Shown here one piece after another: positions 8,229 to 30,991 of a stretch of 33,933 bases of DNA; position 1 is the first letter of the stretch, and each line of letters begins with the position of its first letter. Source of the stretch: an uncultured Desulfosporosinus sp. (GTDB taxonomy: Bacteria > Bacillota > Desulfitobacteriia > Desulfitobacteriales > Desulfitobacteriaceae); NCBI GenBank assembly GCA_927405585.1, contig CAKMJS010000152.1, positions 1-33,933 on the forward strand, read 5' to 3'. Position numbers and translations under genes: made by a program. The notes beneath the pieces are model-generated. The model did no database searches. It saw only the letters and a program-made list of their open reading frames with translations, and was not told the DNA's origin.

Positions 8229-8987
8229 CTAATTAAACGCTTCCACCAGTTCATATTGAGAAGGATAGTTTATCAACACTCCACGAAGCGGACCATAATA
8301 TACAAACAGACTCCCTGCCGCCGCCGCTGATGCTCCGGCATTCACTGCTTTAACACAATCCGACAAATTACCTGCACCCCCACTAGCAATTACCGGGACG
8401 TTTACAGCAGAACTAACTCTTTGAATGAGATCTAAGTCATAGCCATCCATCATTCCATCGTGATTGATTGAAGTAAGCAATATTTCACCAACTCCTAATT
8501 CCTCAGCTCTCTTTGCATATTGGATCGGGTCAAACTTGATATCTTTTGAACCTGATGCAACACAAACCGAATATGAGCCAAATAACCCTTTCTTTACATC
8601 AATTGAAGCCACTACACTTTGAGAACCAAACTGTTTAGTTGCTTCGATTACTATGTTTGGATTTAAATATAGAGAAGTATTCAAAGCAACCTTCTCTACA
8701 CCAAGTCTAAAAAGTGTCTCGACCTGCTTAATTGACGATATACCACCACCGTAACATATGGGCATAAAACACTCTCTCGTAAAGCGCTTAATATATTCTA
8801 GGTTTGGCCCCGCGCCATTAGCAGATGCAGATATATCCAAAATTACAAGCTCATCAGCTTCTTTATCATTAAACAACTTCAAAGTATTTATTGGGTCACC
8901 TAAATACCTTGGATTTTTAAATCGAACGGTCTTATACAGTCCACTATTTTTAAACAGCAAACATGGAATGACTCTACTTCTGTACAT
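8229..8987 (-). CDS. wbuZ: HisF-like amidotransferase partner subunit (WbuZ/HisF2)
   Basis: A 252-residue (beta-alpha)8 barrel related to HisF, the cyclase subunit of imidazole glycerol-phosphate synthase. Barrel motifs include VILDISASANGAGP, CYGGGISSIKQVETLFRLGVEKVALNT and VVASIDVKKG. The N-terminal strand reads RVIPCLLFKNSG, with Leu11 where HisF has the catalytic Asp11, while the second acid (Asp in ASIDVKKG) remains. That pattern is known from WbuZ/HisF2 proteins of O-antigen loci. They work with HisH2 and WbuX/WbpG to turn an acetamido group of a sugar into an acetamidino group. The gene starts at a TAATG junction with the HisH2 stop, so the two are coupled. No other histidine gene is nearby, which argues against a role in histidine synthesis. 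Confidence 0.9.
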   Translation of the reverse strand: MYRSRVIPCLLFKNSGLYKTVRFKNPRYLGDPINTLKLFNDKEADELVILDISASANGAGPNLEYIKRFTRECFMPICYGGGISSIKQVETLFRLGVEKVALNTSLYLNPNIVIEATKQFGSQSVVASIDVKKGLFGSYSVCVASGSKDIKFDPIQYAKRAEELGVGEILLTSINHDGMMDGYDLDLIQRVSSAVNVPVIASGGAGNLSDCVKAVNAGASAAAAGSLFVYYGPLRGVLINYPSQYELVEAFN

Positions 8988-9604
8988 TACACCATCTCCG
9001 CAAAATTTTTCAATAAATTCATTCCGTATTTATGGCTTTTTTCCGGATGAAATTGTACTCCGAAAATTCTATCTCTTCCGATAGCACTTGTAAAGCAATC
9101 CCCATATTCTGTCGTACCTATTATGTCACTTTTATCTACACACTCAACGAAATATGAATGAACAAAGTAAAACCGCTTATCCTCCGAAGAATTCTTGAAT
9201 AGCTGTGCACCATTAGTTGCATGTACATAGTTCCATCCCATATGGGGTATATTCAGTTTTTGCCCAGACCAATGGGATGGAAACTTTTTCGTGTGTGCTT
9301 TGAAAAAACCCAGCCCTGGTAGTGTCCCTTCTTCGCTACCTTCAGTAAGTAGTTGCATACCTAAACATATTCCCAGTAATGGTGTTCCTAAATTAAGTAC
9401 CTTTTCTTTTAAAACATCTATTATACCAAGCTCCTGAAGATTTTTCATCCCGTAATCGAAAGACCCAACACCTGGCAAAATTAGTTTTTCTGCTTCTCGT
9501 AAAACCGAGAGTTCTGAAGTTACTACAACATCGCTACCAATTCTTTTTAGAATGTTTTCAATCGAGCCGACATTTCCCACATTATAATCTATTATTGCAA
9601 TCAT
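8987..9604 (-). CDS. wbuY: HisH-like glutamine amidotransferase (WbuY/HisH2)
   Basis: A 205-residue class I glutamine amidotransferase that hydrolyses glutamine and passes ammonia to its partner. The nucleophile Cys80 lies in LLGICLGMQLL, and the His186/Glu188 pair in GVQFHPEKS near the C-terminus completes the triad. The oxyanion strand PGVGSFDYG is also present. Length is normal for HisH (about 200). It starts with ATG after GGGAGTGAAAAA and ends in a one-base overlap with the HisF-like gene. Together with that barrel and the upstream PP-loop enzyme it forms the sugar-amidination trio known from E. coli wbuX-Y-Z and Pseudomonas wbpG-hisH2-hisF2. It probably acts as a cytoplasmic complex. 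Confidence 0.92.
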   Translation of the reverse strand: MIAIIDYNVGNVGSIENILKRIGSDVVVTSELSVLREAEKLILPGVGSFDYGMKNLQELGIIDVLKEKVLNLGTPLLGICLGMQLLTEGSEEGTLPGLGFFKAHTKKFPSHWSGQKLNIPHMGWNYVHATNGAQLFKNSSEDKRFYFVHSYFVECVDKSDIIGTTEYGDCFTSAIGRDRIFGVQFHPEKSHKYGMNLLKNFAEMV

Positions 9605-9643
9605 TTTTTCACTCCCAAACAGTAACTTTTGCTTATCCAGACC

Positions 9644-10780
9644 CTACCGAAAATTCCTCTTTTCCACACCGACCCTCATGGCAAATCTTATTGCTGATTT
9701 TAACAGCTTCTCACTGTTCCTATAATCTCTAAACGTCTTATTCTCGCTATTCATCAATTCTATGAATTCTTCTTTGGTAATATCAAGTTTGCTAGCTATA
9801 TATTCAAGATCTTGCATCGCAAGTGCCTCATCATAGGGAGGTTTTGCGAGAATATCAAGTGCTTCTTGTCTAGTCATTTGCTCCGTCAAAACCAAACTTG
9901 AAAGATAAGCTTTTCTCTTATCATATCCAAATTTTTTAGGCAGCCAATACCCCTCGTAAAAACGCGTTAAGATATTATCATAATGCTTATTTGCATACTG
10001 TTGCCATCCGAACTTCTGCTCCAATTCAGCAATTGCTTCGTCTTTATGATAAGGAACCATATTTAAAGGGCGAATAACTCTAACACCCTTGAAATATCTA
10101 TAATATAATTTATACTTAAACATACCGCACAAGGGAAAGGTCTTTAATGGATGTTTCCCGAATTTTCTATGAATATCCCTTATCAGTCGGATGTCATTCA
10201 GATATGTCCACTCTTGAGGCGGCTTAACGCCTTCAGTTGAGTAATTTCCGCCAGTTAAGACATATTTAATTCCGTTTTTGGCCGCGTAATTATATAGGCC
10301 TGCGAATATCGCATGGTCTTGCGGTGTATCTTGATAAGGAACTTGAGATTTAAAAAACGCAAGCTGTAAGTCTTTCATTTCCTCCCAATCGACAACTATT
10401 GTATACAAATCAAGATTAAGTGCTTTAATTATTTTATGAACATTTTCATTTGCAACATTCAGATTCCAGCCAGCATCCACCGAAACCATTAACGGTCTCA
10501 AACCTAGTTTTTCTTTAACAATATAGGCGAGATATGAACTGTCTACACCGCCACTTAAACCAATGATGCAATCATACGTCTTACCTTTGCCATCTTTTTT
10601 TATTTTCTCAGCGATAGTTTGCAATTCTTTCGCTCCAATTTCATCTGGATGCCAAGAAGGTAATATGCTGTTGTAATAGTTATCGCAAAAATCACATCTT
10701 CCACTTTCATCGAATTTAATCTCGGGATCGGTAGTATCCATCACGCAATTCGTACATACTTGATATATTGTTTCACTCAT
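9644..10780 (-). CDS. wbuX: N-acetyl sugar amidotransferase (WbuX/WbpG/PseA family)
   Basis: A 378-residue PP-loop ATP pyrophosphatase that activates the acetamido carbonyl of a sugar for attack by ammonia, giving an acetamidino (amidine) group. An N-terminal zinc-knuckle-like set of cysteines (Cys9, Cys12, Cys29, Cys32) is followed by the PP-loop SGGVDSS at 76-82 and by VSVDAGWN. Later motifs YVLTGGNYSTEG and RFYEGYW also fit this family, which includes WbpG of Pseudomonas, PseA of Campylobacter and WbuX of E. coli. The start codon overlaps the upstream oxidoreductase stop by four bases (ATGA). The next genes down are the HisH- and HisF-like partners, 39 bases on. The sugar that is amidinated is not identified. 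Confidence 0.92.
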   Translation of the reverse strand: MSETIYQVCTNCVMDTTDPEIKFDESGRCDFCDNYYNSILPSWHPDEIGAKELQTIAEKIKKDGKGKTYDCIIGLSGGVDSSYLAYIVKEKLGLRPLMVSVDAGWNLNVANENVHKIIKALNLDLYTIVVDWEEMKDLQLAFFKSQVPYQDTPQDHAIFAGLYNYAAKNGIKYVLTGGNYSTEGVKPPQEWTYLNDIRLIRDIHRKFGKHPLKTFPLCGMFKYKLYYRYFKGVRVIRPLNMVPYHKDEAIAELEQKFGWQQYANKHYDNILTRFYEGYWLPKKFGYDKRKAYLSSLVLTEQMTRQEALDILAKPPYDEALAMQDLEYIASKLDITKEEFIELMNSENKTFRDYRNSEKLLKSAIRFAMRVGVEKRNFR

Positions 10781-12933
10781 GGCTTTATCACATCCAATCC
10801 ATTATGCTGAACATTCAGACAGTATATTCCTATCCCCTCAATCAACATCCTATGATTAACAAAAGCATCCTCAATTGCAGTATTCTTCGCTTCACCCTTC
10901 ATCACTTTATAAATCTTCTCATACTCATTCTTAATACCCTTATCCTGCCTAAGCTTTGTCTTACTCTTCTTAACGCTCCCATATTGGTTCATCTTAATAT
11001 AATTATCCATCTCGCAAACTACCCCATTTGAAAACACCCTAAGTTGCTCTTTCGGATATTTCTTTGAACCCATCGAAGTATAAATGATATTACCTATTGC
11101 ACCCGACTTAAAGCGAAGGGTGATCAAACAGTTATCCTTCTTCGGATAGGCATCGTTCTGCGCAAATATTACGTTAAGAGAAAGAAGGTCACTGCCATCT
11201 AAGTACTGAATCACGTCAACAAAGTGACATGCCTCACCGATGATTCTACCCCCACCGACTTTTTCGTCCTGAGTCCAATGATCTTCAGGAAGAAACCCTG
11301 CATTCCCGATATAGTCGTAAACTGCAGGAATCTTATCCGTTGACAAGTTCTTCTTAATCTGATGAATAAGTGGTGCATGGCGACGATTCATTCCACAGAA
11401 GAGTTCCCCTTTAGACGCTCTATATGTTGCTTCAATCTTATCGAGTTCTTCAATTGTTAAACATAACGGCTTTTCGCAGTATACGCTCTTGCCTGCCTCT
11501 AATGCTTTCAACACAAAGTTAGCATGACTGTTATGCTGTGTAGAAATAACAACTAAATCAATTTCCAAATCCTGCAGCAGTTTTGTATAGTCATTGGTGA
11601 CATACTCAAATGGGAACACGTCTTTAGCTTGTGCCGCACCGACCCCACCAGTCGTTGCCAAAGCTTTAAAATGATAGAATCCTGTATCTTTCATAATTGG
11701 AAGCAGGGTGTTCTTAGCAAAATTACCTGCGCCAATTAATCCGACTGACACTTGCTTTTTGTCTATTGTAGTCTTCGCTTTGTTGTTATAAATAACATTC
11801 TCCCACTTAGCTTCATTGGCAGGATACTTTAACAGAATTCCAATATACCTTTCGGAATTCTTGTTAGTTGTAATCATCTCATAAGCTATATCCGCTTTTT
11901 CGAAGTCAATCTCATGGGTTATCAAATCCGCAAAGTCAGCACGTTTTTCTGCGATAAGACGTATGAATTCCTCCAAGTTTCTTCCTTCGGTGAAGCGGAC
12001 ATGACCAATTGGATAGTCGATACCTTTTTCTTCGTAATTTGCGTCATAACGTCCGGGGCCATAGGACCGAGCGATGGTGAATGTCAGTTCCTTTTCGTAA
12101 TAAGGACGACGGTCTATTTCCATATTGGTTACACCAATCATACAGATGATTGCGCGGTCACGAGCTATAGCAGCGGCCAAATCCATAGGTTCATTACTGT
12201 TTGCGGCTGCCGTTATGATGACTTTATCAACACCTCTACCTTTGGTCAGAGATTTGGTGATATCCGCAGCATTCTCATCATTTGAGAAAACAAATGCCTT
12301 GAGCCTTGTTCCCGACATAGATTTATCTTTAATGTCGTAGCCAATTACGTCGCAACCATAAGCACCTAAGATACGGGCTGTTACATGACCCAAAAGTCCC
12401 AGCCCAATTACCGCTACTGTTTCGCCAGAAACTACGTGCGCTTGGTGGATCCCCTGCAATGCAATTCCACCTAAAGCACACAATGAACCTTGGCGATAAT
12501 CTGTTAGTTCATTCGGAATCCTTGCAATCAGATTTTTATTTACACGGTTTACTTCGCTATGGTAGGCCTGTCCAGCCATAGCAACCAAGTCACCTATTTC
12601 AACCTCGGTAACTCCACGACCACATTCAACAACCTTACCCACTGCAGAGTAACCCATAGGCATTGGCTCATTTAAACGTGTAAAAGCACCCTCGATAGTT
12701 GTTACAACTCCATCTGTAGACATCTTCTCCAAGACTTTCTTGACCTGATCTGGCCTTTCCAAGGCTTTTTGAATAAGGTTCTTCCCGCCAAATGAGGTAA
12801 GTCCTCTCTCTGTTCCTGCGCTAACAACTGAATAGAGTGTTTCGACCAGAACATAATTGTCTTTTACCGTCGGCACTGGTGTCTCAATCAATTTTACTGA
12901 GCCGTTATTTACCATTAGAAATAATTGCTTCAT
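10777..12933 (-). CDS. Bi-domain oxidoreductase: MDR alcohol dehydrogenase fused to Gfo/Idh/MocA
   Basis: A 718-residue fusion of two NAD(P)-binding enzymes. The first half (about 1-365) is a medium-chain dehydrogenase-like unit: GroES-like start with VVSAGTERG in place of the usual zinc-ligand segment, and cofactor loop VAVIGLGLLGHVTARILGAYG near residue 170. The second half (from about 395) is a Gfo/Idh/MocA oxidoreductase: VGLIGAGNFAKN, VISTQHNSHANFV, the family's CEKPLCLT motif, and GGGRIIGEACHFVDV with the expected catalytic-region His. Such fusions are recurrent in surface polysaccharide loci beside WbuX and heparinase-like genes, but their reaction is not established to my knowledge. 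A sugar oxidation/reduction on a nucleotide sugar or lipid-linked glycan is likely. RBS GAGGATGG lies about 9 bases before ATG. Confidence 0.88.
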   Translation of the reverse strand: MKQLFLMVNNGSVKLIETPVPTVKDNYVLVETLYSVVSAGTERGLTSFGGKNLIQKALERPDQVKKVLEKMSTDGVVTTIEGAFTRLNEPMPMGYSAVGKVVECGRGVTEVEIGDLVAMAGQAYHSEVNRVNKNLIARIPNELTDYRQGSLCALGGIALQGIHQAHVVSGETVAVIGLGLLGHVTARILGAYGCDVIGYDIKDKSMSGTRLKAFVFSNDENAADITKSLTKGRGVDKVIITAAANSNEPMDLAAAIARDRAIICMIGVTNMEIDRRPYYEKELTFTIARSYGPGRYDANYEEKGIDYPIGHVRFTEGRNLEEFIRLIAEKRADFADLITHEIDFEKADIAYEMITTNKNSERYIGILLKYPANEAKWENVIYNNKAKTTIDKKQVSVGLIGAGNFAKNTLLPIMKDTGFYHFKALATTGGVGAAQAKDVFPFEYVTNDYTKLLQDLEIDLVVISTQHNSHANFVLKALEAGKSVYCEKPLCLTIEELDKIEATYRASKGELFCGMNRRHAPLIHQIKKNLSTDKIPAVYDYIGNAGFLPEDHWTQDEKVGGGRIIGEACHFVDVIQYLDGSDLLSLNVIFAQNDAYPKKDNCLITLRFKSGAIGNIIYTSMGSKKYPKEQLRVFSNGVVCEMDNYIKMNQYGSVKKSKTKLRQDKGIKNEYEKIYKVMKGEAKNTAIEDAFVNHRMLIEGIGIYCLNVQHNGLDVIKP

Positions 12934-12989: not shown

Positions 12990-14081
12990 TCAATCACATA
13001 AAACATCTGCGATCCGTTTACTCGCAAAGCCGTCACCATATGGATTGGAAGCCTGACTCATCTTATCATACTCGACTTTATTTTCTAACAACAATTTAAA
13101 TGTACTGTAAATCATTTCTTCACTAGTTCCTACCAACTTTAAGGTTCCTGCCGCAATTCCTTCAGGTCTTTCGGTTGTATCTCTCATTACCAAAACTGGC
13201 TTACCGAGGGACGGCGCTTCTTCTTGAATTCCACCACTATCCGTTAAGATAAAATAGGATCGTGATAAGAAGTTATGAAAATCAAGCACATCAAGGGGCT
13301 CAATGATACGTATCCTATCACACCCTCCTAGGAATTCACTCGCGGCTTCTCTTACCACTGGATTCATGTGGGCTGGATAGATGACCTTGATATCCGGAAT
13401 CTCATCGACCAAGCGTCTGATTGCTCTAAACATACAGTGTAGAGGTTCACCTAAGTTTTCTCTTCGATGGGCTGTTAGCATGATCAGTCGGCTGTCCTTT
13501 GTCCACTCTAATTCCGGATGTGTATATTCATTACTTACTGTTGTCTTCAAAGCATCAATTGCAGTATTGCCAGTCACTGTGATTGTATTAGGGTCCTTAC
13601 CTTCGCTGATGAGATTCTGCTTTGACAATTCAGTCGGTGCGAAGTTGTATTTTGCTATAATCCCCACCGCCTGACGGTTGAACTCTTCCGGATAGGGAGA
13701 ATGAATGTTATAAGTTCTAAGTCCCGCCTCAACATGTCCAACCGGTATCTGTAAATAGAAGCAGGCCAGAGCTGTTGCGAGAGTAGTTGAGGTGTCGCCG
13801 TGAACCAGAACCACATCTGGTTTTTCAGCTTCTAATACCTCTTTGATTCCATTTAATATGGAAATAGTAACATCAAATAACGTCTGCTTATCCTTCATAA
13901 TTGAAAGGTCGTAGTCTGGCACCACATTGAATGCCGCTAAAACTTGGTCAAGCATCTGACGGTGCTGACCGGTTACACAGACGATGGTGTTGATATTTTC
14001 TCGCGTCTTTAACTCTTTGACGAGTGGACACATTTTTATTGCTTCAGGCCTTGTACCGAAGACTAACATCACTTTTTTCAT
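12990..14081 (-). CDS. wecB: UDP-N-acetylglucosamine 2-epimerase (non-hydrolysing)
   Basis: Interconverts UDP-GlcNAc and UDP-ManNAc. The 363-residue protein has every signature of the family: VFGTRPEAIKMCPLV at the N-terminus, TGQHRQML, VHGDTSTTLATALA, GHVEAGLRT, YPEEFNRQ, TAHRRENLGEPL, and the UDP-binding SGGIQEEAPSLGKPVLVMRD followed by TTERPEG. Length is standard. With the dehydrogenase gene just upstream it makes UDP-ManNAcA from UDP-GlcNAc. A WbpI-like role on a 2,3-diacetamido uronic acid is an alternative, since the amidotransferase trio is nearby. The ATG has GAGGAG about 12 bases upstream. A hairpin lies in the 58-base gap from the dehydrogenase gene. Confidence 0.95.
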   Translation of the reverse strand: MKKVMLVFGTRPEAIKMCPLVKELKTRENINTIVCVTGQHRQMLDQVLAAFNVVPDYDLSIMKDKQTLFDVTISILNGIKEVLEAEKPDVVLVHGDTSTTLATALACFYLQIPVGHVEAGLRTYNIHSPYPEEFNRQAVGIIAKYNFAPTELSKQNLISEGKDPNTITVTGNTAIDALKTTVSNEYTHPELEWTKDSRLIMLTAHRRENLGEPLHCMFRAIRRLVDEIPDIKVIYPAHMNPVVREAASEFLGGCDRIRIIEPLDVLDFHNFLSRSYFILTDSGGIQEEAPSLGKPVLVMRDTTERPEGIAAGTLKLVGTSEEMIYSTFKLLLENKVEYDKMSQASNPYGDGFASKRIADVLCD

Positions 14082-14106
14082 AACAGCTTAGTTCTCCTCA
14101 TATTTC

Positions 14107-14131
14107 AGAGGAGAGCAACCAGCTTTCCTCT
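14107..14131. other. Short hairpin between the UDP-ManNAc dehydrogenase and epimerase genes
   Basis: AGAGGAGAGC and GCTTTCCTCT pair at 9 of 10 positions around a five-base loop. A T-rich run follows only on the plus strand, where no gene is transcribed, so it is not a convincing terminator for the operon. It lies just ahead of the epimerase ribosome site on the minus strand and could affect message stability or processing. Confidence 0.4.
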
Positions 14132-14139
14132 TTACTTTT

Positions 14140-15360
14140 TTACAATTTATAAGCACCCTCAAGGCCGCGGATGTTTTTAGTGTCCAGTACTACTTTGCCT
14201 TTTAGCTTGTCCATCTGTTCTTTAATTTCATTATGAGCTACCATAATCACAACCAAATCAACCTCAGCCAAAAAAGTATCAAAATCATAGTACTGGTTCT
14301 CAACTAATTCCCGCTTAACGAATGGATCGTATACTTTCAGTCCTGGAGCAAGATGTCTTTCCATGCTTTCCAGTAATTGTAATGTCGGGCTTTCTCTAAC
14401 ATCATCAACATCTTCTTTATAAGTCAGGCCATAAAGACCCACTCTTGTTAAATCAGTCATGCCCTTTTGTTTCATAATGTTGTGAACTCTCTCCAACACG
14501 AACTCAGGCATAGAATCGTTGATTTTTCTTGCTGCTAAGATGATATTGGCAAGTCCTGGATAGTCTCCTACCAAGAACCAGGGGTCAACAGAGATGCAAT
14601 GGCCTCCAACTCCCGGTCCTGGTTGAAGAATGTTTACACGGGGATGCATATTTGCAATCCTGATTATTTCATAAACATCCATATCATCTAAACGGCAGAT
14701 TTTTGTCAGCTCATTAGCAAATGCAATATTTATGTCTCTGAATGTATTTTCAACAACTTTAGTCATCTCGGCAGTTCTGATGTCCGTCACCGCGATATCT
14801 CCTTGGCAGAATGAGCCATAAAGCGCTTTAATTTTCTCCCCAACTGCCTTATCATCAACGCCGACGGTACGAGAGTTGTGTTTCAATTCATAAACCATAT
14901 CTCCTGGAATAATTCTTTCAGGAGCATGGACCAAATGGAGGTCTTGTCCGATTGTAAAGCCCATTTCTTCGACAACTGGACGCAAGAACTTATCGATTGT
15001 TCCCGGAGATATCGTGGATTCTATCACTACTGTTGCTCCTTTAGGACAAACTCTCATTACATTATTAACGGCAGCTAAAACATAGCTCGCATCAATCTTC
15101 TTACTAAATTTATCATAAGGAGTAGGTACTGCTATGATATAAACATCCGTTTCTATGTAGTCAGTTGAGAACTCAATACCTTTTGCAACTGCATCGTTGA
15201 AAAGGTCATCAAGGCCATCTTCTTCAAACGTCGTCTTGCCAGACTTTAATGTAGCTACTAACTCATTGTCATAATCTGTCCCTACTACATCCACTCCATG
15301 GGATGCAAACATTAATGCAGTTGGTAGGCCGATATATCCTAATCCGATTACGTTTATCAT
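14140..15360 (-). CDS. wecC: UDP-N-acetyl-D-mannosamine dehydrogenase
   Basis: NAD-dependent four-electron oxidation of UDP-ManNAc to UDP-ManNAcA. The 406-residue protein starts MINVIGLGYIGLPTALMFASHG (Rossmann loop GxGxxG). It has VPTPYDK, ESTISPGT, and the long family block from RTAEMTKVVENTFRDINIAF on. The catalytic Cys is in GPGVGGHCISVDPW, and the C-terminal UDP-binding domain has YGLTYKEDVDDVRESP. The NILQPGPGVGGHC and VDPWFLV forms resemble WecC more than UDP-glucose dehydrogenases. RBS AGAGG lies before ATG. It stands next to the epimerase in the natural order of use, so ManNAcA is a probable constituent, which would make the polymer acidic. Confidence 0.94.
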   Translation of the reverse strand: MINVIGLGYIGLPTALMFASHGVDVVGTDYDNELVATLKSGKTTFEEDGLDDLFNDAVAKGIEFSTDYIETDVYIIAVPTPYDKFSKKIDASYVLAAVNNVMRVCPKGATVVIESTISPGTIDKFLRPVVEEMGFTIGQDLHLVHAPERIIPGDMVYELKHNSRTVGVDDKAVGEKIKALYGSFCQGDIAVTDIRTAEMTKVVENTFRDINIAFANELTKICRLDDMDVYEIIRIANMHPRVNILQPGPGVGGHCISVDPWFLVGDYPGLANIILAARKINDSMPEFVLERVHNIMKQKGMTDLTRVGLYGLTYKEDVDDVRESPTLQLLESMERHLAPGLKVYDPFVKRELVENQYYDFDTFLAEVDLVVIMVAHNEIKEQMDKLKGKVVLDTKNIRGLEGAYKL

Positions 15361-16676: not shown

Positions 16677-18524
16677 CTACTCATTTCTAAGTTTAATCTT
16701 AAACTTTAAATTACATTTACTGTTCATGCTACAATTAACAATAACACAGTTTATGATTTCTTTTTTTAGATAATACAAACTCCTATAGGCTTTGCGAACT
16801 TCTACATTACCAGACTCAACCTTAACAGCACATAGCTTATCGCTTTCGTCATACACCTCAAACCCATCTGGAACTATCTTCACTTCATATGGCGTATGGA
16901 TAAGGAAGCTACAACTATCGCCACTACCTCTCACTTCATCAGCTATCTCATAGCCCTGTTTTGTCTTTACTATCTGTCGGGTATGCTTATAACCGTTCTT
17001 TGAAATCATCGTCCCAGTGAAGCTGCCTTTAGTGAATTCCACATCCTTACGGCTCGTCCAATCATATATCATGAAATTGCTATAGCTTACCATTTGCTCA
17101 GAGCCCTGCACCTTAACTGTGTTGTGAGCTGCTGTCTTAGCCATGTCCGTCCCAATCTCACTCGCATAAGAATATGTACCGCTGTCACAAAAGATGTTCT
17201 TCCCTTTATGCCACAAGTCTATATGCATACCATCCATGTGGGCGGGTCTGGATTTGAAGTCATGTAAACATATCATCAGAAAACCGTCGTCATGCCGCAT
17301 TGTGTATAAACCCGCATCCTTAAATGCCATTGACTTTTTTTCGATCCTTACAAACGGATAGTTACCCCCGCTTTCAAACCACAGTAACTCTTCATCACAA
17401 CTGCCCTTGTCAAACAACCTCTTGCCGGTTACAAGCGCATGGACTGTATTTATAACTGGCGAAAAGTCTCGATAACCACAAACAGTTACAGGAAATATTA
17501 GTGCCCCATCATTTGATCCGTAATTTGGAACATCACCAGTCGCATCTTGACATTGATACATTAGTAGTGCGCTATTCATTACTAGCTTCTTAGAATTATC
17601 TGAGATAGCTATACCTGTCTTTTCGCTTATCTTAAACACACACTCTATAATTTGAAGTGCAAATCTCTGGTAGTTGAATGAGTATTGAACGTAACCGCCA
17701 TCTGGCATGAACTGATTCTCAATCTCTTTATCAAGAAGTCTATAGGCTTTTCTCAACCTCCGTTTATCCTCGCAGCACCACGCACCAATAATCAAACCGC
17801 ATATCTCAGAAAGGGTATGATTATTCTTGATACACTTGTGCGCATAAAAGAAATTGGAAAGCACCTTCTTATAACACACCTCAACCAAACGATGCATATT
17901 ATTCTCATCTTCAGCTGTGGTAATCTGGTTAAATGCCGTATATGCCATCAGTGCATTTATCATACGAAGGGTGCATTCCTGTCCGCATTTATAATTTGCA
18001 CCGTATGGATATGGATTGTCCTTCAGCCATCGTCTAAGCTGATCCGAGAATGCTAGGTAATACTTCTCATCACCCGTAATCACATATGCTCTAGCGAAAT
18101 AGAAAAAGTGTGTAAACCGAGAGGCTTCCCATATGGCCTTTATATCACCCCGTTTAGCCTCAAAATCTGGTATTCTATACCACTTAACACTACTGCTGCT
18201 TTCTTGTTTTGTGATAGGGCTGTAATGCCAATTGATTGGATTACCATAGTCCATGTCTATTGATGAAAAACCGGTAATAATACCATTAATGGCTTTATCA
18301 GCAATAGCGACAATCTCATTCTGCTTTTCTGCCGGAAGGTTAATGAGAAAATCCTTAATAATATCGATATTGAAGCTAACTATGTCTACTCTCTTTACTA
18401 CGGCTTTTTTCTCAAAAAAATACTCGGTGGCTGGTATATTTGACACCATCTTCAGTTTTGCCGAATACAATGAGCGATTAATCGCCCAGCCTACGCCGTA
18501 TTCAGCTAAAATCGATTTAATCAT
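16677..18524 (-). CDS. Heparinase II/III-like polysaccharide lyase family protein
   Basis: A 615-residue protein with the two-part layout of heparinase II/III and alginate lyases. The N-terminal alpha/alpha toroid (about 60-370) includes the KNNHTLSEICG segment carrying the conserved Asn-His. The C-terminal beta-sheet domain (about 370-615) has RPAHMDGMHIDLWHKGKNIF and TAAHNTVKV, the conserved His-containing stretch of the Hepar_II_III family. Lyases of this fold cut uronic-acid-containing chains by beta-elimination. No signal peptide is visible at the N-terminus (MIKSILAEYGVGWAIN), so it appears cytoplasmic, unlike degradative lyases. Homologues are frequently encoded inside surface-polysaccharide loci. 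Start is the ATG at 18524 with GAGG six bases upstream. A GTG four codons earlier overlaps that site. Its real reaction is unknown. Confidence 0.87.
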   Translation of the reverse strand: MIKSILAEYGVGWAINRSLYSAKLKMVSNIPATEYFFEKKAVVKRVDIVSFNIDIIKDFLINLPAEKQNEIVAIADKAINGIITGFSSIDMDYGNPINWHYSPITKQESSSSVKWYRIPDFEAKRGDIKAIWEASRFTHFFYFARAYVITGDEKYYLAFSDQLRRWLKDNPYPYGANYKCGQECTLRMINALMAYTAFNQITTAEDENNMHRLVEVCYKKVLSNFFYAHKCIKNNHTLSEICGLIIGAWCCEDKRRLRKAYRLLDKEIENQFMPDGGYVQYSFNYQRFALQIIECVFKISEKTGIAISDNSKKLVMNSALLMYQCQDATGDVPNYGSNDGALIFPVTVCGYRDFSPVINTVHALVTGKRLFDKGSCDEELLWFESGGNYPFVRIEKKSMAFKDAGLYTMRHDDGFLMICLHDFKSRPAHMDGMHIDLWHKGKNIFCDSGTYSYASEIGTDMAKTAAHNTVKVQGSEQMVSYSNFMIYDWTSRKDVEFTKGSFTGTMISKNGYKHTRQIVKTKQGYEIADEVRGSGDSCSFLIHTPYEVKIVPDGFEVYDESDKLCAVKVESGNVEVRKAYRSLYYLKKEIINCVIVNCSMNSKCNLKFKIKLRNE

Positions 18525-18570
18525 TTGATACCTCACCTCAATTATAAGTTTCTTTATGATTTCGTGACTT

Positions 18571-19830
18571 CTAGCGGCTTACGTCCTCAATAACATCAAT
18601 TAATTTTGAAGTCAAAACCTTAAAGTCAAAGTCTGCAACCCCTATACGAGCATTAGCGCCCATTTCGCCATATTTTTCTTTCGGCATGTCATACATCTCC
18701 AGTATCTTCTTCGCCAATTCTTCTGGCGTTGCCTCCTCTAATGAAAGACCACATTTGTACATATCTAATATACAATAACCCATCTTAACCGTAGAAATGA
18801 CTGGTTTGCCAGAGGCCATATACTCGAACAGCTTGTTTGAACTATTACCCCTAGACCAGTTGTACTGCGATTGAGAGTAGTTCAGTATATTCACCGACGA
18901 TTTGTTCAAAATGTAGGGAATATATTGCTTATTGACATAACCCTTCATCTTTACATTGGTAAGGCCTTCATCTTTAACTCGTTGCTTCAATGCTTCTTGC
19001 TGATTTCCATCCCCATACACTAAAAACTGAATGTTAGTATGGTCTTTCAGCAGAGCGGCTGCATCAAGAATATTACCAACGTTATTGACCGGTCGGATTG
19101 CACCAGCATATACAACATTGAACTTATCATCAGCCAGATCCATATCCTCAACTACATTTTCTTCTGTCGATTTTAGGAAAGCTACTAAATCAACGCCATT
19201 GTTAATGTAGTGACATTTTTTCAAATCTACTTTTCCACCGTGGGCTGTATCCCATCCTTTTTCAATTATATAATCCCGATCTCCCTCTTTGGTGAAAATC
19301 AAAGCATCCGCTTTTTTGTAGATCCAATGTTCTCCAGCTGTCAGTATTTTACCTAAGATACTATTCTCTTTTGCTTTATTAAATGAGAATATTGCTTCAG
19401 GCCATAAATCTCGCACTTCACATATGCAAGGTACTTTTAGCTTCTTGGCTATCTGTATTCCTGCCACCATAGTCAGTGGATGGACACTTGAGGCAAGAAT
19501 AATATCTGGTTTACCATTGGCTTTAGTGTAGGCTTTTGCTACCGAAAACAGATTTTTGTAAAAAAGCAACATGTTCCTTACTCGATCTATTCCATTGCCC
19601 AGTGCAGAAGTCGTTTTTACAAATATAAATGGAATGCCATTTACCATATCGATTGAATACTTCTTACTTCCTGTATCTATATACTCCGTCTTATTGTGAT
19701 ATGTACTTGCACAAAACACCGTCGCGTTATACCCTTGCTTAATAAGATTTTCTGCAAACCAGTAATGCCTACCGCCACGGTTTTTATACATATCTGTTGC
19801 ATAATGATTCCATAACCATATGTTCTTCAC
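18571..19830 (-). CDS. WbuB-like glycosyltransferase family 4
   Basis: A 419-residue GT-B enzyme resembling WbuB, a presumed amino-sugar transferase of O-antigen clusters. The N-terminus KNIWLWNHYATDM plus GGRHYWFAENL is characteristic. The C-terminal donor domain has VVYAGAIRPVNNVGNIL, FLVYGDGNQ and SNKLFEYMASGKPVIS with the family Glu. The longest frame begins at a TTG (19863) with no ribosome site. The GTG at 19830 has AAGGAG eight bases before it and starts at the usual first residues, so it is chosen. It lies 46 bases upstream of the heparinase-like gene. It probably adds the second or third sugar to the lipid-linked intermediate. Donor is unknown. Confidence 0.9.
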   Translation of the reverse strand: MKNIWLWNHYATDMYKNRGGRHYWFAENLIKQGYNATVFCASTYHNKTEYIDTGSKKYSIDMVNGIPFIFVKTTSALGNGIDRVRNMLLFYKNLFSVAKAYTKANGKPDIILASSVHPLTMVAGIQIAKKLKVPCICEVRDLWPEAIFSFNKAKENSILGKILTAGEHWIYKKADALIFTKEGDRDYIIEKGWDTAHGGKVDLKKCHYINNGVDLVAFLKSTEENVVEDMDLADDKFNVVYAGAIRPVNNVGNILDAAALLKDHTNIQFLVYGDGNQQEALKQRVKDEGLTNVKMKGYVNKQYIPYILNKSSVNILNYSQSQYNWSRGNSSNKLFEYMASGKPVISTVKMGYCILDMYKCGLSLEEATPEELAKKILEMYDMPKEKYGEMGANARIGVADFDFKVLTSKLIDVIEDVSR

Positions 19831-19863
19831 TCTAAATTCTCCTTGATACCATAACAATTTCAA

Positions 19864-20086: not shown

Positions 20087-20761
20087 TTACTTTAATACAT
20101 CGATCAAATCAGTAAGTGACTCAATACGAAAATCAGCAGAATAATTTCCCGCTGGTACTTCAACATTACAATACTGGCCTCCTGTTCTTGAGACCTGAAC
20201 AGTGAGCCAACCTAGCTTCCTTGCACCGATAAAGTCTTTGCTCGGATTATCTCCTACATACACAATATCCTGGTGTGCACACCCGAGCTCTTGCTGAGCA
20301 ATAGAATACGGCAGAAGACTAGGCTTCCAATTCTTTCTACCATATACGTCAGTGAATACTATCGTATCAAAATAATCTTTAATGTTCAGAGCTATTACCT
20401 TATTCCTTTGACCGATTAAATATCCATCCGTTATAAGCCCCATCTTATATCGTCCCTGGAAGTGATCTAATGCCCATTTCGCATCTTCATAAGCAGAAAT
20501 ATAGGGGGAATGTTCTCGATATACTTGAACCATACTATGAATCAGCTCCGGGTCACATTTTGCACCTAAGCTCACTAATGTTTGGTCAAAGATATTCCCC
20601 CTAATTCCCCGTCCGTAAATTTGATTGGCATGCTCCTGAAATCCAACGATTTCAAATTTCGCCTTTAACCATGTATCTACAGAGTTGAATCCGCTATAAA
20701 CATATTGCTCTTCCGGGTAGATTGTATCATCTAAATCGAACACTATTGCTTCTATACTCAT
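20087..20761 (-). CDS. HAD-superfamily hydrolase
   Basis: A 224-residue haloacid dehalogenase-type phosphatase. Motif I is VFDLDDTIYPEE (nucleophile Asp and acid Asp), motif II is LITDGY, motif III Lys is in the RKNWKPSLLPY region, and motif IV is YVGDNPSKDF. A cap domain sits between motifs I and II. Phosphosugar or nucleotide phosphatases of this size are commonly found beside ATP-grasp genes in polysaccharide loci. Substrate is unknown. The ATG at 20761 (MSIEAIVFDLDD) follows AAGGGTGTG and is preferred over the GTG three codons upstream. It directly follows the ATP-grasp gene, 61 bases away, which suggests a joint task. Confidence 0.87.
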   Translation of the reverse strand: MSIEAIVFDLDDTIYPEEQYVYSGFNSVDTWLKAKFEIVGFQEHANQIYGRGIRGNIFDQTLVSLGAKCDPELIHSMVQVYREHSPYISAYEDAKWALDHFQGRYKMGLITDGYLIGQRNKVIALNIKDYFDTIVFTDVYGRKNWKPSLLPYSIAQQELGCAHQDIVYVGDNPSKDFIGARKLGWLTVQVSRTGGQYCNVEVPAGNYSADFRIESLTDLIDVLK

Positions 20762-20822
20762 AATACACACCCTTAAGCTACAAGGCTAATTTATTCAGTT
20801 CAGCAGAATAGGAAAAAATCTT

Positions 20823-21806
20823 CTATAGAATATCCTTTTTCCTAACAAAAATGGCATCATCATATCGAAGCATCACTACTCCGTCGTCCCATTTATCAAT
20901 TTCTATATTGGCCTGCGAGCCTCTTAACAGCTGGATAATCCATTTGGGAAAGTCAGCCCCGGCCTCTATCGCCAGTGGAAAACCACCACCGAACCTCGGG
21001 TTAATCTCAATGAATTTCAACTGATCATCCACTGTACGGATACACTGTAATGTGATACAGCCTAATGCCCCAGGAAGAGCACTGACAATCTTAATCGACT
21101 GTTCAATTATCTCTGGATCTTTGACAGTCATTCCCTTACTAACTTCTCCTGCCCTTGTCTCAATCCGCAGCCGTGGCACAACACATCGTACTTTTCCTTC
21201 AAAATCTGCCAAAACGTCAATAGTGTACTCTTTCCCTGATACATATTCTTGAACTATTGCCTCGGGAACATGCTTCATGTAGAATTCTAATTCTGATCTA
21301 TTCTTAACTTTATTTACACCAACGCTACCGCTTCCGCATGCAGGTTTTATAAAGTACGGATACGAACCTTCATTGTCCTCCAAAATCCTATTAGCATCAT
21401 ATATCTTTGGCGTTTCAATTCCGATTGATTGGAGAAAACGACTAGTATTCCTCTTGTCAACGCAAATATCGTTCACCTGAGTGGATGACACCAGCAAACG
21501 GACTCCCATTTTTCTAAATTGCTCCTCATTCTCCCCAAGCACCCCCAATTCAGTATCAATCAGAGGTATAACCATTTGGATATTATGATCCTCACAGAGC
21601 CTTAAAATGGTCTGGATATACAATGGATCAGCCACTGGCGGAACCAATACACTTTCATCAGCAATAAACCGTGTCGGGGCATTGGATTGTAGGTCCGCAA
21701 CAACTATCTTACCGAATAATCCAAGCTCGCTAAGAATCTTTTTAAAGTGCCGTACGAGTGCTACTCGTCTACCAGCACTCGTAAACAAAATGTTAAATTC
21801 CTCCAT
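20823..21806 (-). CDS. ATP-grasp ligase (carbamoyl-phosphate synthase/PylC-like)
   Basis: A 327-residue ATP-grasp protein that joins a carboxylate to an amine or other nucleophile with ATP. A pre-ATP-grasp Rossmann-like domain (NILFTSAGRRVALVRHFKK, then VADLQSNAP) leads into the ATP-binding core with YFIKPACGSGSVGV, and VQEYVSGKEYTIDVLAD. The metal-binding ILGCITLQCI and FIEINPRFGGGFPLA segment carries the family's Glu and Asn. Members of this type occur repeatedly in polysaccharide loci next to PGT, DegT and HAD genes. A reasonable but untested idea is amino-acylation of an amino sugar. The start ATG has only a weak GAGTG site, so the N-terminus may be a few residues off. Confidence 0.86.
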   Translation of the reverse strand: MEEFNILFTSAGRRVALVRHFKKILSELGLFGKIVVADLQSNAPTRFIADESVLVPPVADPLYIQTILRLCEDHNIQMVIPLIDTELGVLGENEEQFRKMGVRLLVSSTQVNDICVDKRNTSRFLQSIGIETPKIYDANRILEDNEGSYPYFIKPACGSGSVGVNKVKNRSELEFYMKHVPEAIVQEYVSGKEYTIDVLADFEGKVRCVVPRLRIETRAGEVSKGMTVKDPEIIEQSIKIVSALPGALGCITLQCIRTVDDQLKFIEINPRFGGGFPLAIEAGADFPKWIIQLLRGSQANIEIDKWDDGVVMLRYDDAIFVRKKDIL

Positions 21807-21876
21807 ATTTAAATAATCACTCGTTTCTTAGTAAGTAAGCATTAAGTTAAATCATGTTGTAAAAAATACCTTAATT

Positions 21877-22500
21877 TTAGCCATTAATGGTCTTTGCTGT
21901 CACATTAAACTCTTCCATCGTCTGACCCTTCGACTGATTTACCCCGCTCCTCATAAGCACAATAGCCAAAGTCTTCAAAAATATCCTCAAATCCACCCCA
22001 AACGAAATATTCTTAACATACCACACATCATACTCGAACCGTGTCTCCCAATCCACCCCATTGCGCCCATTGATCTGTGCCCACCCCGATATCCCTGGTA
22101 TTACAGCATGGCGCCGCATTTGTTCTGGAGTATAACGTTCCAAATACTGAACTAACAAAGGGCGGGGGCCAATAAAGCTCATTTCCCCTTTTAATATATT
22201 GAAAAGCTGAGGTAGTTCATCGACACTAAGCTTTCGCAAAAGCGTACCGACACGAGTCATACGTTCCATATCGGATAGGGTACGTCCGTTTTTCTCAGTC
22301 TCCAAACGCATGGTCCGAAACTTATAAATTGTAAATATTACTCCATCTTTACCTGGACGTTCTTGCTCAAAGAGCACGGGGCCCTGCGATCCTATCCTGA
22401 TGACAACTGCTGCGCAAAGCATGATCGCGGACGCCGGAATCAATATAATAATTGCAAATAATAAATCCATCACTCTCTTTATCTTAACGTAAGGTATCAT
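21877..22500 (-). CDS. Monotopic phosphoglycosyl transferase (PglC/WcaJ-type sugar transferase)
   Basis: Initiates repeat-unit assembly by moving a sugar 1-phosphate from a UDP-sugar to undecaprenyl phosphate. The 207-residue protein has one N-terminal re-entrant hydrophobic helix (about 10-35). It then has KFRTM, the catalytic Asp94-Glu95 dyad in SVDELPQL, and KGEMSFIGPRPL, with ISGWAQINGRN further on. The size matches the short PglC-like class, so it works without the extra N-terminal domain of WcaJ. It is the intact copy; a second, truncated one lies at 24.35 kb. The preceding aminotransferase is 15 bases away. The sugar is unknown, possibly an amino-dideoxysugar because of that neighbour. 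Confidence 0.95.
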   Translation of the reverse strand: MIPYVKIKRVMDLLFAIIILIPASAIMLCAAVVIRIGSQGPVLFEQERPGKDGVIFTIYKFRTMRLETEKNGRTLSDMERMTRVGTLLRKLSVDELPQLFNILKGEMSFIGPRPLLVQYLERYTPEQMRRHAVIPGISGWAQINGRNGVDWETRFEYDVWYVKNISFGVDLRIFLKTLAIVLMRSGVNQSKGQTMEEFNVTAKTING

Positions 22501-22515
22501 ATTGTTTCGACACTC

Positions 22516-23751
22516 CTAACCCACATCTTCCCACAATTTCTTCAGCCGTGCTTCAGGATCAGCTATCGAGGCATACCGAATAGCTCTCCTAACCTCATCT
22601 ACGACAATATCAATTTGTTCCTCAGTGATATTATTAAAGAATGGAATAGCCAACGTACCGGTTGCAACATGCTCTGTAACAGGGAAATCCCCTTCCTTAT
22701 ACCCAAACATTTCTCGATAAAAAGGCTGAAGATGGATCGACGTAAAGTACGGCCTACATCCAACTCCCCGGTCTAATAGTGTTTGCATAACTAAGTTCCG
22801 ATCAATCCGAGCCTCAAATCTTATTACAAACACAAACCAGCTCATCTTCACTCGCTCGTCAATCGTGGGAAGGATAACCCCTTCAACATCTTTGAATTTC
22901 TCCATATAGGAATCCGCAACTCGTTGACGAGCATCAATAATCTCATCGATCCGCTCAAGCTGTGCAAGACCTAGTGCAGCACTAATATCGCTCATTCTAT
23001 AGTTGTAGCCTAAACGAACATGGTTAAGCCACTGAGTGTCAATTCCACGTCCTTGGTTCCGAAGACTATAACACAACTTGGCAATCTTTTCGTCATTCGT
23101 AACGACGATTCCACCCTCACCCGTTGTCATTTGCTTATTCGGATAAAAAGCGAAAACCCCAGCATCAGACATTGTTCCGGCTTTCTTGCCATTCCACTCC
23201 GCTCCAATCGCCTCACAGGAGTCTTCAATAATTGCCAATCCGTGTTTAAGAGCAATTCGTCTTATTTCACGCATGTTCACAGGTTGCCCGAAAATATGGA
23301 CTGGTAAGATCGCTTTGGTTCTTTCTGTAATCTTGGCCTCGATTTGTGTAGTATCCATGTTATAGGTCTTTTCGTCGATATCGACAAATACAGGTTTAGC
23401 GCGTTCAAATAACATACAATTTGCAGAGGCTATAAAACTAAACGGCGTCGTAATGACTTCATCGCCATCTTTTATTCCTAAAGCGGCTACTATCATGTGC
23501 AAACCACTCGTCCCACTATTGCAGGCGACTGCATACTTTGTTCCCGCGAATGCAGCCATCTTTTCCTCAAACTCCTTGAGTTTTGGCCCTAAGGCCAAGT
23601 GGTTTGAATCTAGGACCTCCATTACAGCTTGTTTTTCTCTCTCTGTAATATCCGGGCTTGATAGCGGAATCATCTTTCTAACACTGTTTTCCTTTTCCGG
23701 TACCACTTGTTTTTTTCTTTCTATAATATCCTGTCTTGATTGCGAAATCAT
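22516..23751 (-). CDS. DegT/DnrJ/EryC1/StrS sugar aminotransferase
   Basis: PLP-dependent transfer of an amino group to a keto-sugar nucleotide. The 411-residue frame has PFSFIASANCMLFERAKPVF, VHIFGQPVNM, IIEDSCEAIGAEW, and the PLP lysine at about residue 206 in FAFYPNKQMTTGEGG. Homology begins at residue 27 (MIPLSSPDITEREKQAV). The 26 residues before it are an imperfect repeat of that start (MISQSRQDIIERKKQVV). The upstream ATG has AAAGGGG about 9 bases before it, while the second ATG (23673) has a poor site, so translation likely begins at 23751. No dehydratase or acetyltransferase partner of a bacillosamine pathway is in the window. Confidence 0.93.
   Translation of the reverse strand: MISQSRQDIIERKKQVVPEKENSVRKMIPLSSPDITEREKQAVMEVLDSNHLALGPKLKEFEEKMAAFAGTKYAVACNSGTSGLHMIVAALGIKDGDEVITTPFSFIASANCMLFERAKPVFVDIDEKTYNMDTTQIEAKITERTKAILPVHIFGQPVNMREIRRIALKHGLAIIEDSCEAIGAEWNGKKAGTMSDAGVFAFYPNKQMTTGEGGIVVTNDEKIAKLCYSLRNQGRGIDTQWLNHVRLGYNYRMSDISAALGLAQLERIDEIIDARQRVADSYMEKFKDVEGVILPTIDERVKMSWFVFVIRFEARIDRNLVMQTLLDRGVGCRPYFTSIHLQPFYREMFGYKEGDFPVTEHVATGTLAIPFFNNITEEQIDIVVDEVRRAIRYASIADPEARLKKLWEDVG
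23628..23751. repeat. Imperfect tandem duplication of the aminotransferase gene start
   Basis: About 46 bases at 23706-23751 and 23628-23673 align with 78 bases offset. Both begin ATGATT and share the runs ATCAAG, GGATATTA and AAACAAG with scattered substitutions. The first copy forms a new in-frame 26-residue extension. The divergence suggests an old duplication. Confidence 0.75.
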
Positions 23752-24352: not shown

Positions 24353-24382
24353 TTATGTAATCCATTTGCAATCCCCAGTCGT
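24022..24382. repeat. Three direct copies of ATCCCCAGTCGT
   Basis: Exact 12-mers occur at 24022-24033, 24266-24277 and 24371-24382, each preceded by TTTG plus two or three variable bases. On the minus strand they read ACGACTGGGGAT followed by two bases and CAAA. In one frame all three translate to TTGD followed by one residue and Lys. The third copy touches the point where PGT homology stops. Confidence 0.85.
24098..24244. repeat. Cluster of AT-rich palindromes (ACTACATATAG type)
   Basis: TACTATATATAGTA (24098-24111), ACTACATATAG (24130-24140), ATACTATATGTAGTAT (24204-24219) and ATACTACATG (24235-24244) are variants of one dyad. The second and third are exact inverses over 11 bases. They may be regulator binding sites or parts of a mobile element end. 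Confidence 0.55.
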
Positions 24383-24691
24383 CATATCCCCTTTAATAAT
24401 ATTCAATAATTGCGGCAGTTCATCCAAACTACTCTTCCTCAAAAACTTCCCAAACGGCGTAATAAAACTATCCGCATCCTTTAGTAAATGCGTCGCTACA
24501 TTAGGAGCCTCAGTTCGCATAGTTCGAAACTTATAAAAAACGAATTCTTTGTTATTTCTTCCGATTCTCCGTTGACTAAATAAGGCTGGTCCCTTAGAAT
24601 CAACTTTTATGACTAGGCTAATTATGAGCAAAAAAGGACTTAAAATACTAAGTAATATAAGGCCAAAAAAAACATCTGTGAATCTTTTCAA
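24353..24691 (-). pseudogene. Truncated phosphoglycosyl transferase
   Basis: The first 103 or so residues are a clear sugar transferase: KRFTDVFFGLILLS with the membrane segment, GPALFSQRRIG, YKFRTMRTEAP, and the Asp-Glu dyad in SLDELPQLLNIIKGDM. The next expected stretch (a GPRP motif and the C-terminal half) is absent. Translation instead goes into TTGDCKWIT and stops, giving 112 residues against about 200 normally. The break falls at 24383, beside a repeat copy. The TTG at 24691 with GGAGGAG eight bases before it is the likely start. It is probably non-functional and its role has passed to the intact copy at 22 kb. Confidence 0.82.
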
Positions 24692-30763: not shown

Positions 30764-30991
30764 AGTTGGGCCTCCTCTTTTTATTTGACCTTTATAATGA
30801 TTGGAACCTTCTTTGATCATTAAAAGTTTTTCCCTCCCTTGAACACGTACCTTTTATTGTCTGTTCGCCATTTCAAAGGATAATTCCTGCAAGAAAATAT
30901 CCTTTTTTTGCTTATTATCTACGTGCTAATATGAATGGTTATTCTTCCTTTAAAATTATCTCCAATTGTGAAACGTCCCCTGTCAGAGGCT

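Follow-up and report, generated by a model that had tools for sequence, protein, structure and literature searches.

What does a large two-domain oxidoreductase do beside genes for sugar amidination? The question is raised by a polysaccharide gene cluster of an uncultured Desulfosporosinus sp. (GenBank assembly GCA_927405585.1, contig CAKMJS010000152.1, positions 1 to 33,933; this whole stretch of 33,933 nucleotides is called the window). Here, the N-acetyl sugar amidotransferase WbuX and its partners HisH2 and HisF2 are encoded next to a 718-residue protein that joins MDR-type and Gfo/Idh/MocA domains in one chain (the fusion). The initial annotation took the coupling of these genes to suggest that the fusion acts on the same sugar as the trio and forms or remodels its amidinated position. 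We favor a different reading, in which the cluster may encode the synthesis of an L-configured 2-amino-uronic acid, most likely N-acetyl-L-galactosaminuronic acid (L-GalNAcA), with amidination as an add-on that would give L-GalNAmA (2-acetamidino-2-deoxy-L-galacturonic acid), a known sugar. Drawn from sequence comparison and analogy, this reading has, in our estimate, close to an even chance of being right.

The usual neighbors of the fusion

The fusion gene (10777-12933) and the genes for WbuX (9644-10780), HisH2 (8987-9604) and HisF2 (8229-8987) were found on the minus strand where they had first been placed, with the amidination families over their cut-offs and both domains of the fusion recognized by Pfam. 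The junctions also agree to the base: an ATGA overlap between the fusion and WbuX, 39 bases between WbuX and HisH2, and TAATG between HisH2 and HisF2. By itself, an overlap of start and stop codons is poor evidence for a common substrate. Transcriptionally upstream of the fusion are a WecB-type epimerase (56 bases away) and a WecC-like dehydrogenase (together 12990-15360), a methyltransferase, a heparinase II/III-fold protein (HEP; 16677-18536) and a GT4 glycosyltransferase (18571-19863). The WecB- and WecC-like genes, HEP and GT4 went unmentioned in the initial annotation.

Eighty-nine neighborhoods of the fusion were compared, made up of the best 80 of at least 578 confirmed stretches in genome contigs and nine Bacillota loci. 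Genes were called with local profiles seeded by the window proteins (E < 1e-8). There are 7.5 kb on both sides of the fusion in 44 of the 89, and absences in the other 45 are weak. HEP was found in 67 of the 89 relatives and in 39 of the 44 with full flanks. It lies on the same strand as the fusion within about 1.7 kb (approximate, stop to stop) in 62 of the 89 and adjoins GT4 in 54; GT4 is present in 76. WecB was found in 37 and WecC in 28, with WecB between the fusion and HEP in 14 loci. The main partner of the fusion is HEP, not WbuX, and the finding is more interesting for this fusion-heparinase-GT4 module than for the amidination link.

The closest relative among the loci sampled, L014, belongs to a Gram-positive phylum; its fusion is 78% identical to that of the window and its HEP 64%. 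No amidination gene was found in its 20 kb, and its fusion runs directly to a glycosyltransferase where the window inserts WbuX-HisH2-HisF2. L014 carries a CapD-type dehydratase, a short-chain dehydrogenase/reductase (SDR) and a phosphoglycosyl transferase, as for a first sugar of the N-acetylquinovosamine (QuiNAc) type. Genes of the RmlD, GDP-mannose dehydratase and nucleotidyltransferase families (rhamnose-type) are also found there beside the fusion, HEP, GT4 and a dehydrogenase. These assignments are at the Pfam level, except for the phosphoglycosyl transferase, which was called by local profile. By analogy, the gene set is consistent with the three sugar types of the Pseudomonas aeruginosa PA14 O-antigen, described below. 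A 182-residue open reading frame (ORF) of L014 (13594-14142, minus strand) matches positions 18-73 of the 187 in the N-terminal profile of nucleotide-sugar dehydrogenases and lies beside an intact dehydrogenase.

The fusion as a candidate C3 epimerase

The fusion passed no NCBIfam cut-off. It aligns over nearly its full length with relatives from many phyla, and the scan of genome contigs that gave the at least 578 stretches also spans many phyla. In a same-phylum sample, it was found in 10 of 398 genomes at E <= 1e-60, its own genome counted. That genome has one full copy, and its three other matches span 20-28% of the query. Five of seven plasmid matches are annotated as "bi-domain-containing oxidoreductase". 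When a Vibrio fusion gene and a Pseudomonas HEP gene were searched at the DNA level in distant mode, neither had a match in E. coli genomes.

An AlphaFold 2 (AF2) model of the fusion (pLDDT 85) has both the MDR and the Gfo/Idh folds. Fifty fusions, the window included, were aligned out of 90 main copies. The Gfo/Idh/MocA half (about residues 394-700; 10834-11754, minus strand) keeps the EKP motif (E487-K488-P489), Glu567, His570 and Asp573 in all 50. Comparison of the model with known structures places this half near sugar dehydrogenases such as levoglucosan dehydrogenase, KanD2 and GenD2, which oxidize at C3. The MDR half (about residues 1-370; 11824-12933, minus strand) departs from the zinc-dependent type, since all 50 sequences have a tyrosine (Tyr95) in place of a zinc-ligand histidine, aligned to the GHE-motif histidine of 6ie0. 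It also has an SYGPGRYD signature, of which residues 291-297 are invariant among the aligned fusions. Two dehydrogenase halves would be well suited to oxidize a carbon and reduce it again from the other face, and we propose the fusion as a C3 epimerase.

The heparinase-fold protein and its two classes

The HEP of the window (minus strand; PF16889/PF07940) was modeled by AF2 with a pLDDT of 88.7. Its Foldseek matches are heparinase III, PL17 and PL33, with human dermatan sulfate epimerase 1 (6hzn; rank 27, E 4e-15, TM 0.58) ranking below them. The epimerase shares the overall fold of HEP, but at 10% identity, and heparinase III lyases score better; a comparison of folds cannot tell a lyase from an epimerase. 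Dermatan sulfate epimerase 1 inverts C5 of a glycan uronic acid and acts on polymer.

HEP sequences were aligned and classed for 59 of 70 matches, the window included, with 11 partial or extra ones omitted. The residues expected of the heparinase II/III fold are present, with N239, H240, Y289 and H471 lying over the NH, Y and H of the lyases in all 59. A further histidine of the lyases, in their HxQPDN stretch, is catalytic in those enzymes; the window has Pro431 at that position and His433 two places on. We call sequences with histidine at this position class I (38 of 59; ORFs of 518-922 aa, median 557) and those with another residue class II (21 of 59, including the window; 606-770 aa).

The class goes with the kind of initiation genes nearby. 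Among loci with at least 5 kb downstream, an aminotransferase of the type used for a 4-amino initiating sugar was found downstream in 12 of 20 class II loci and 1 of 31 class I loci (Fisher p 8e-6). The aminotransferase of the window is upstream of GT4-HEP, so the window was scored as lacking a downstream one in this test. On the fusion tree, HEP class changes 10 times, compared to a mean of 17.3 and a least value of 13 in 200 shuffles. In independent pairs, the aminotransferase follows the class by about 6 to 0 (median p 0.03, range 0.016-0.063). This association is suggestive only, because the class definition and its test were devised after seeing the classes and because the class itself is inherited. 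It fits a HEP that acts on a lipid-linked disaccharide and a fusion that acts earlier, on a UDP-sugar. A class that follows the initiation cassette would be expected if the acceptor is recognized by HEP but not by the fusion.

Amidination as an optional addition

Amidination genes of any kind were found in the stretches of 14 of the 89 relatives, with all three in 12 of the 14; L078 shows WbuX only, and L090, at a contig end, HisH2/HisF2 only. WbuX was found in 13 of the 89 and in 7 of the 44 with full flanks. No amidination gene was found in 75 of the 89, nor in 37 of the 44 with full flanks, and none in the nine Bacillota loci. In nine relatives, HisF2 is encoded on the same strand as the fusion and no more than 400 bases away. 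In most of these nine the order is WbuX-HisH2-HisF2-fusion, compared to fusion-WbuX-HisH2-HisF2 in the window. In L083, HisH2-HisF2-WbuX precede the fusion by about 4.8 kb. L082 has two trios (WbuX-HisF2-HisH2 and WbuX-HisH2-HisF2), the second directly beside the fusion. L063 has the fusion and GT4 with a trio about 2 kb downstream, and no heparinase-fold gene was found in the stretch examined.

The presence of amidination genes was mapped on the tree of 90 fusions, where 15 rows (the window and the 14 relatives) carry the label. The label changes 10 times, at least nine of the changes being forced by supported branches, and none of 500 shuffles was as low. With only the 52 rows that are labeled or have full flanks, there are still 10 changes, and 8 of 300 shuffles were as low. 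The trio therefore came or went many times. A narrower label, HisF2 directly beside the fusion (10 of 71 rows that have the label or at least 3 kb on both sides), changes eight times, against a shuffle mean of 9.5 with 23 of 300 as low, and is scattered rather than clustered. From this repeated gain and loss, we take the link between the trio and the fusion to be real but optional. Given the distribution and the lack of amidination genes in L014, the fusion is therefore not in itself an enzyme of amidination.

A sample of 398 Pseudomonadota genomes was also searched. WbuX has 51 copies in 41 genomes, and 20 genomes have the fusion. Seven genomes have both, against an expectation of 2.06 (hypergeometric p 0.002, or 0.007 if the centre genome is left out). 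The spacing between WbuX and the fusion is 1501-1518 bases in four of the seven (three of six without the centre genome), which leaves room for HisH2 and HisF2; the genes in between were seen in the centre genome only (L071). Thirteen of the 20 fusion-bearing genomes gave no WbuX match at E <= 1e-40. The other 47 of the 51 WbuX copies lie outside this arrangement, so WbuX serves other sugars too.

Wide occurrence of the fusion gene without wbuX had been named at the outset as evidence against the proposed coupling of function, and it is what the 75 relatives and the 13 Pseudomonadota genomes show. One part of the proposal stands. It is plausible that the fusion and the trio of the window act on the same sugar, because the trio is found repeatedly beside the fusion in unrelated bacteria and because WbuX and the fusion co-occur in excess. 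The part that fails is a role of the fusion dedicated to amidination.

A candidate route to L-GalNAcA and L-GalNAmA

The cluster has source genes for UDP-ManNAcA. The WecB-type UDP-GlcNAc 2-epimerase (12990-14081, minus strand) is well over its cut-off (TIGR00236, 507 bits; cut-off 210). The nucleotide-sugar 6-dehydrogenase (14140-15360, minus strand; TIGR03026, 430 bits, cut-off 190) is nearest to WecC, the UDP-ManNAc dehydrogenase, yet below the WecC cut-off (PRK11064, 354 bits; cut-off 459). UDP-GlcNAc would be converted to UDP-ManNAc by WecB and then oxidized at C6 by the WecC-like enzyme to give UDP-ManNAcA. The fusion would invert C3, with one half oxidizing the sugar to a ketone and the other reducing it from the opposite face, so that the step is cofactor-neutral. 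The GT4 enzyme (minus strand; PF00534), a candidate amino-uronic acid transferase, would then move the sugar onto the first sugar, which is linked to undecaprenyl diphosphate. Inside the cell, HEP would abstract the proton at C5, next to the carboxylate, in the manner of its lyase relatives, but would return it on the opposite face. The two inversions would take the sugar from D-manno through D-altro to L-galacto. Finally, WbuX with HisH2/HisF2 would convert the 2-N-acetyl group to 2-N-acetamidino. We infer the chemistry of each step, the order of the steps from C3 inversion onward, the cellular place of the C5 inversion and which half of the fusion oxidizes from the families, gene order and conserved residues observed. 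Like the initial annotation, which suggested that the amidinated sugar is derived from ManNAcA or new, we favor a ManNAcA-derived sugar, but L-GalNAmA would not be new.

In its fullest form, the proposal is of a new route to L-galacto amino-uronic acids: a redox-neutral C3 epimerase, complete in itself and built from two unrelated dehydrogenase folds, followed by a cytoplasmic, heparinase-fold C5 epimerase acting on an undecaprenyl-linked disaccharide, with HEP subclasses matched to the first sugar, and with the subclass of the window lacking one lyase-type histidine and joined to amidination. We hold this more tentatively, at about one chance in three. The amidination trio is known, and the fusion family is widespread but has no assigned function; their combination with a class II HEP was seen, among the loci sampled, only in the window.

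Comparison with known systems

The nearest described parallel is in P. aeruginosa PA14, whose O-antigen consists of alpha-L-GalNAcA, alpha-D-QuiNAc and alpha-L-rhamnose, with L-GalNAcA as the only amino-uronic acid (PMC2997053). In this strain, zbdP and hepP form an operon (PA14_23420/23430). ZbdP has an MDR domain at residues 9-373 and a Gfo/Idh/MviM domain at residues 402-714, and HepP is a heparinase (PMC5732420). Both genes are listed among those for O-antigen biosynthesis (PMC1794565). As in the window, an MDR and Gfo/Idh fusion is thus encoded beside a heparinase II/III in a strain with an L-amino-uronic polymer, a likeness drawn from published domain maps alone. By elimination from the composition of the O-antigen, the ZbdP/HepP pair would belong to L-GalNAcA. 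The PA14 sugar differs in being plainly N-acetylated, with no amidination. The pair was described as a heparinase with a role in virulence and a dehydrogenase that binds zinc, and the main text of PMC5732420 names neither O-antigen nor lipopolysaccharide (LPS).

Published descriptions of two other systems can be set beside the cluster. L-GalNAmA is present in the LPS of Vibrio vulnificus YJ016 (PMC3210612), and V. vulnificus is among the bacteria reported to have homologues of a HepP domain, as are Acinetobacter, P. fluorescens, Shigella boydii and Edwardsiella tarda (PMC5732420). In Acinetobacter RAG-1, gnlA/gnlB (WeeE/WeeF) are postulated to make UDP-L-GalNAcA (PMC9676051). They are an adjacent gene pair postulated for L-GalNAcA, the product that we propose for the fusion and HEP, but they are assigned at the level of the UDP-sugar. 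We predict that WeeE/WeeF are a fusion and a HEP, and that the LPS cluster of YJ016 carries the trio, a fusion and a HEP. In the titles, abstract openings and passages available from the open-licence literature, we found no link of the fusion or HepP to L-GalNAcA. The trio of the window belongs to the same three families as the described WbpG/WbuX-HisH2-HisF2 systems, whose substrates lead to L-FucNAm and ManNAc3NAmA (PMC10607449) in contrast to the L-GalNAcA-type residue proposed here.

Alternative explanations

Several observations weigh against the proposed L-GalNAcA pathway. HEP was not found in 22 of the 89 fusion loci, and 15 of the 39 full-flank loci with HEP have neither WecB nor WecC. 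The fusion of the window sits on a long stem of the tree (1.88 changes per column) and is only 36-42% identical to the 48 aligned relatives other than L014. Among amidination-bearing loci with a classed HEP, 13 of 14 are class I and the window is the sole class II; in independent pairs, class and trio differ by about 0.1 to 3.5 (median p 0.25), which is not significant. HepP of PA14 is class I by the size of its gene (1653 bp), so that the transfer of its product to the class II window is indirect. The two nearby nucleotide-sugar genes of PA14 are both annotated as dehydrogenases (PMC12654532), and a 2-epimerase is not evident from these annotations. A hepP mutant has clear biofilm and worm-killing defects, and a zbdP mutant is mostly like wild type (PMC5732420). 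This split would be unexpected if both proteins make one O-antigen sugar, and it cuts against a simple shared pathway. HepP was also reported to degrade heparin on plates (PMC5732420), which favors a lyase. Neither the clearing of heparin nor the mutant phenotypes speak to the composition of LPS.

The clearing of heparin plates, together with the closeness of the HEP fold to heparinase III lyases, could be explained if the fusion and HEP serve an L-amino-uronic acid in another way, with both epimerizations occurring on the UDP-sugar through a 4-ketone made and reduced by the fusion and with HEP as a lyase for trimming or recycling glycan. There is a precedent in Bordetella, where WbmF/WbmG/WbmH are proposed to convert D-manno to L-galacto by 3,5-epimerization, on the way to UDP-L-GalNAc3NAcA, through a C4 ketone (PMC2279256). 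That inversion of C3 and C5 gives L-galacto from D-manno is stated there for the 2,3-diamino analogue. The Bordetella route uses three SDR-family proteins, unlike the MDR/Gfo fusion and heparinase fold of the window, and a 4-ketone route here would depend on a proton-transfer epimerase. HEP accompanies the fusion in 67 of the 89 loci and is linked to GT4, the lyase-type histidine at 431 is absent from the window and 20 others of the 59 aligned, and PSORTb found no export signal in HepP, whose location its authors left open (PMC5732420). We consider this explanation unlikely, though it is the strongest of the alternatives. A simpler scheme, in which ManNAcA becomes L-GulNAcA through inversion of C5 by HEP alone, would leave the fusion another task, such as making a 3-ketone for another branch; formation of L-GulNAcA by such an inversion is proposed for the Vibrio polysaccharide of V. 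cholerae (PMC3901696). The scheme seems improbable to us, given that the fusion and HEP travel together and that PA14, which bears the pair, makes L-GalNAcA, a sugar that requires inversion of both C3 and C5.

The amidination trio may instead act on another sugar, its place beside the fusion being incidental. A possible source for such a substrate exists in the same genome, which is a further point against the favored pathway: contig C20 has a nucleotide-sugar dehydrogenase, a Gfo/Idh enzyme, a DegT aminotransferase, a hexapeptide transferase and 4,6-dehydratase-like and Wzy-like genes, including WbpA/WbpB/WbpD/WbpE-like ones, and could supply a 2,3-diacetamido uronic acid. In P. aeruginosa O5, WbpG introduces the acetamidino group at C-3 of ManNAc3NAmA (PMC10607449). 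Yet C20 is a separate contig with its own polymerase-like gene, the sole WbuX over cut-off in the genome sits in the window, and bacteria of many phyla have the trio next to the fusion. We judge this about as improbable as the L-GulNAcA scheme, or very slightly less so. The idea of a fusion devoted to forming or remodeling the amidinated position draws on the recurrent adjacency of the trio, but it was rejected on the distribution, with no amidination gene in the stretches of most relatives or in L014, and PA14 makes an L-GalNAcA that is not amidinated (PMC2997053). We give it very little weight; a facultative role in amidination stays within the L-GalNAcA pathway, which we retain as the best explanation.

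Other features of the locus

The amidination genes are clear members of their families. WbuX (378 aa) scores 308 bits with TIGR03573 (cut-off 203) and has the SGGVDS PP-loop and tetracysteine motifs described in PMC10607449; a search of the whole genome found no second copy over cut-off. The glutaminase subunit HisH2 (205 aa) scores 233 bits with TIGR01855 (cut-off 105) and has GICLGMQ and HPEKS stretches. HisF2 (252 aa), an AglZ-type subunit of the acetamidino-forming system, scores 348 bits with NF038364 (cut-off 310).

Beyond GT4, a probable initiating-sugar cassette spans 20087-23751 on the minus strand, with HAD and ATP-grasp genes, a phosphoglycosyl transferase (21877-22500) and a DegT aminotransferase (22516-23751). 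The same set of four recurs in locus L015. As a guess, its ATP-grasp protein may attach an amino acid to a 4-amino sugar. A 124-residue ORF at 24353-24727 (minus strand) matches positions 1-103 of the 179 in PF02397 and is probably a truncated relic beside the full copy at 21877-22500. At 27971-32788 (minus strand), two large CWB2 cell-wall-binding proteins, one with cohesin-like and putative Ig domains, lie beside Wzz/Wzc/Wzb-like capsule genes.

The initial annotation saw no enzymes for FucNAc, legionaminate or pseudaminate precursors in the window. No complete set for any of them was found among the ORFs scanned, but the DegT aminotransferase is PseC/LegC-like (357 bits, against a PseC cut-off of 423.5). 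Legionaminate and pseudaminate were considered as targets of amidination and set aside: of four NeuB-family matches in the genome, two are DAHP synthases, and the other two, at 30-31 bits, were left unchecked. L-FucNAc was set aside tentatively, with FnlC left unchecked. Contig C84 has a PseB/FnlA-type dehydratase (311 bits with PseB, cut-off 408; 275 with FnlA, cut-off 730) and an RmlD-like gene. Positions 10000-26000 of contig C20 (L112) hold a second polysaccharide cluster that includes a PseB/WbpM-like dehydratase and is likely a pathway for a 2,3-diamino uronic acid.

Implications

The proposal offers a testable assignment of enzymes to L-GalNAcA and L-GalNAmA in surface polysaccharides, and a likely function for a family of fusions whose relatives are encoded in at least 578 stretches of the genomes scanned. 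It would recast the virulence heparinase and zinc-binding dehydrogenase genes of PA14 as genes for sugar-biosynthesis enzymes. If it is true for the HEP step, bacteria use chemistry like that of dermatan sulfate epimerase inside the cell, on a lipid-linked intermediate.

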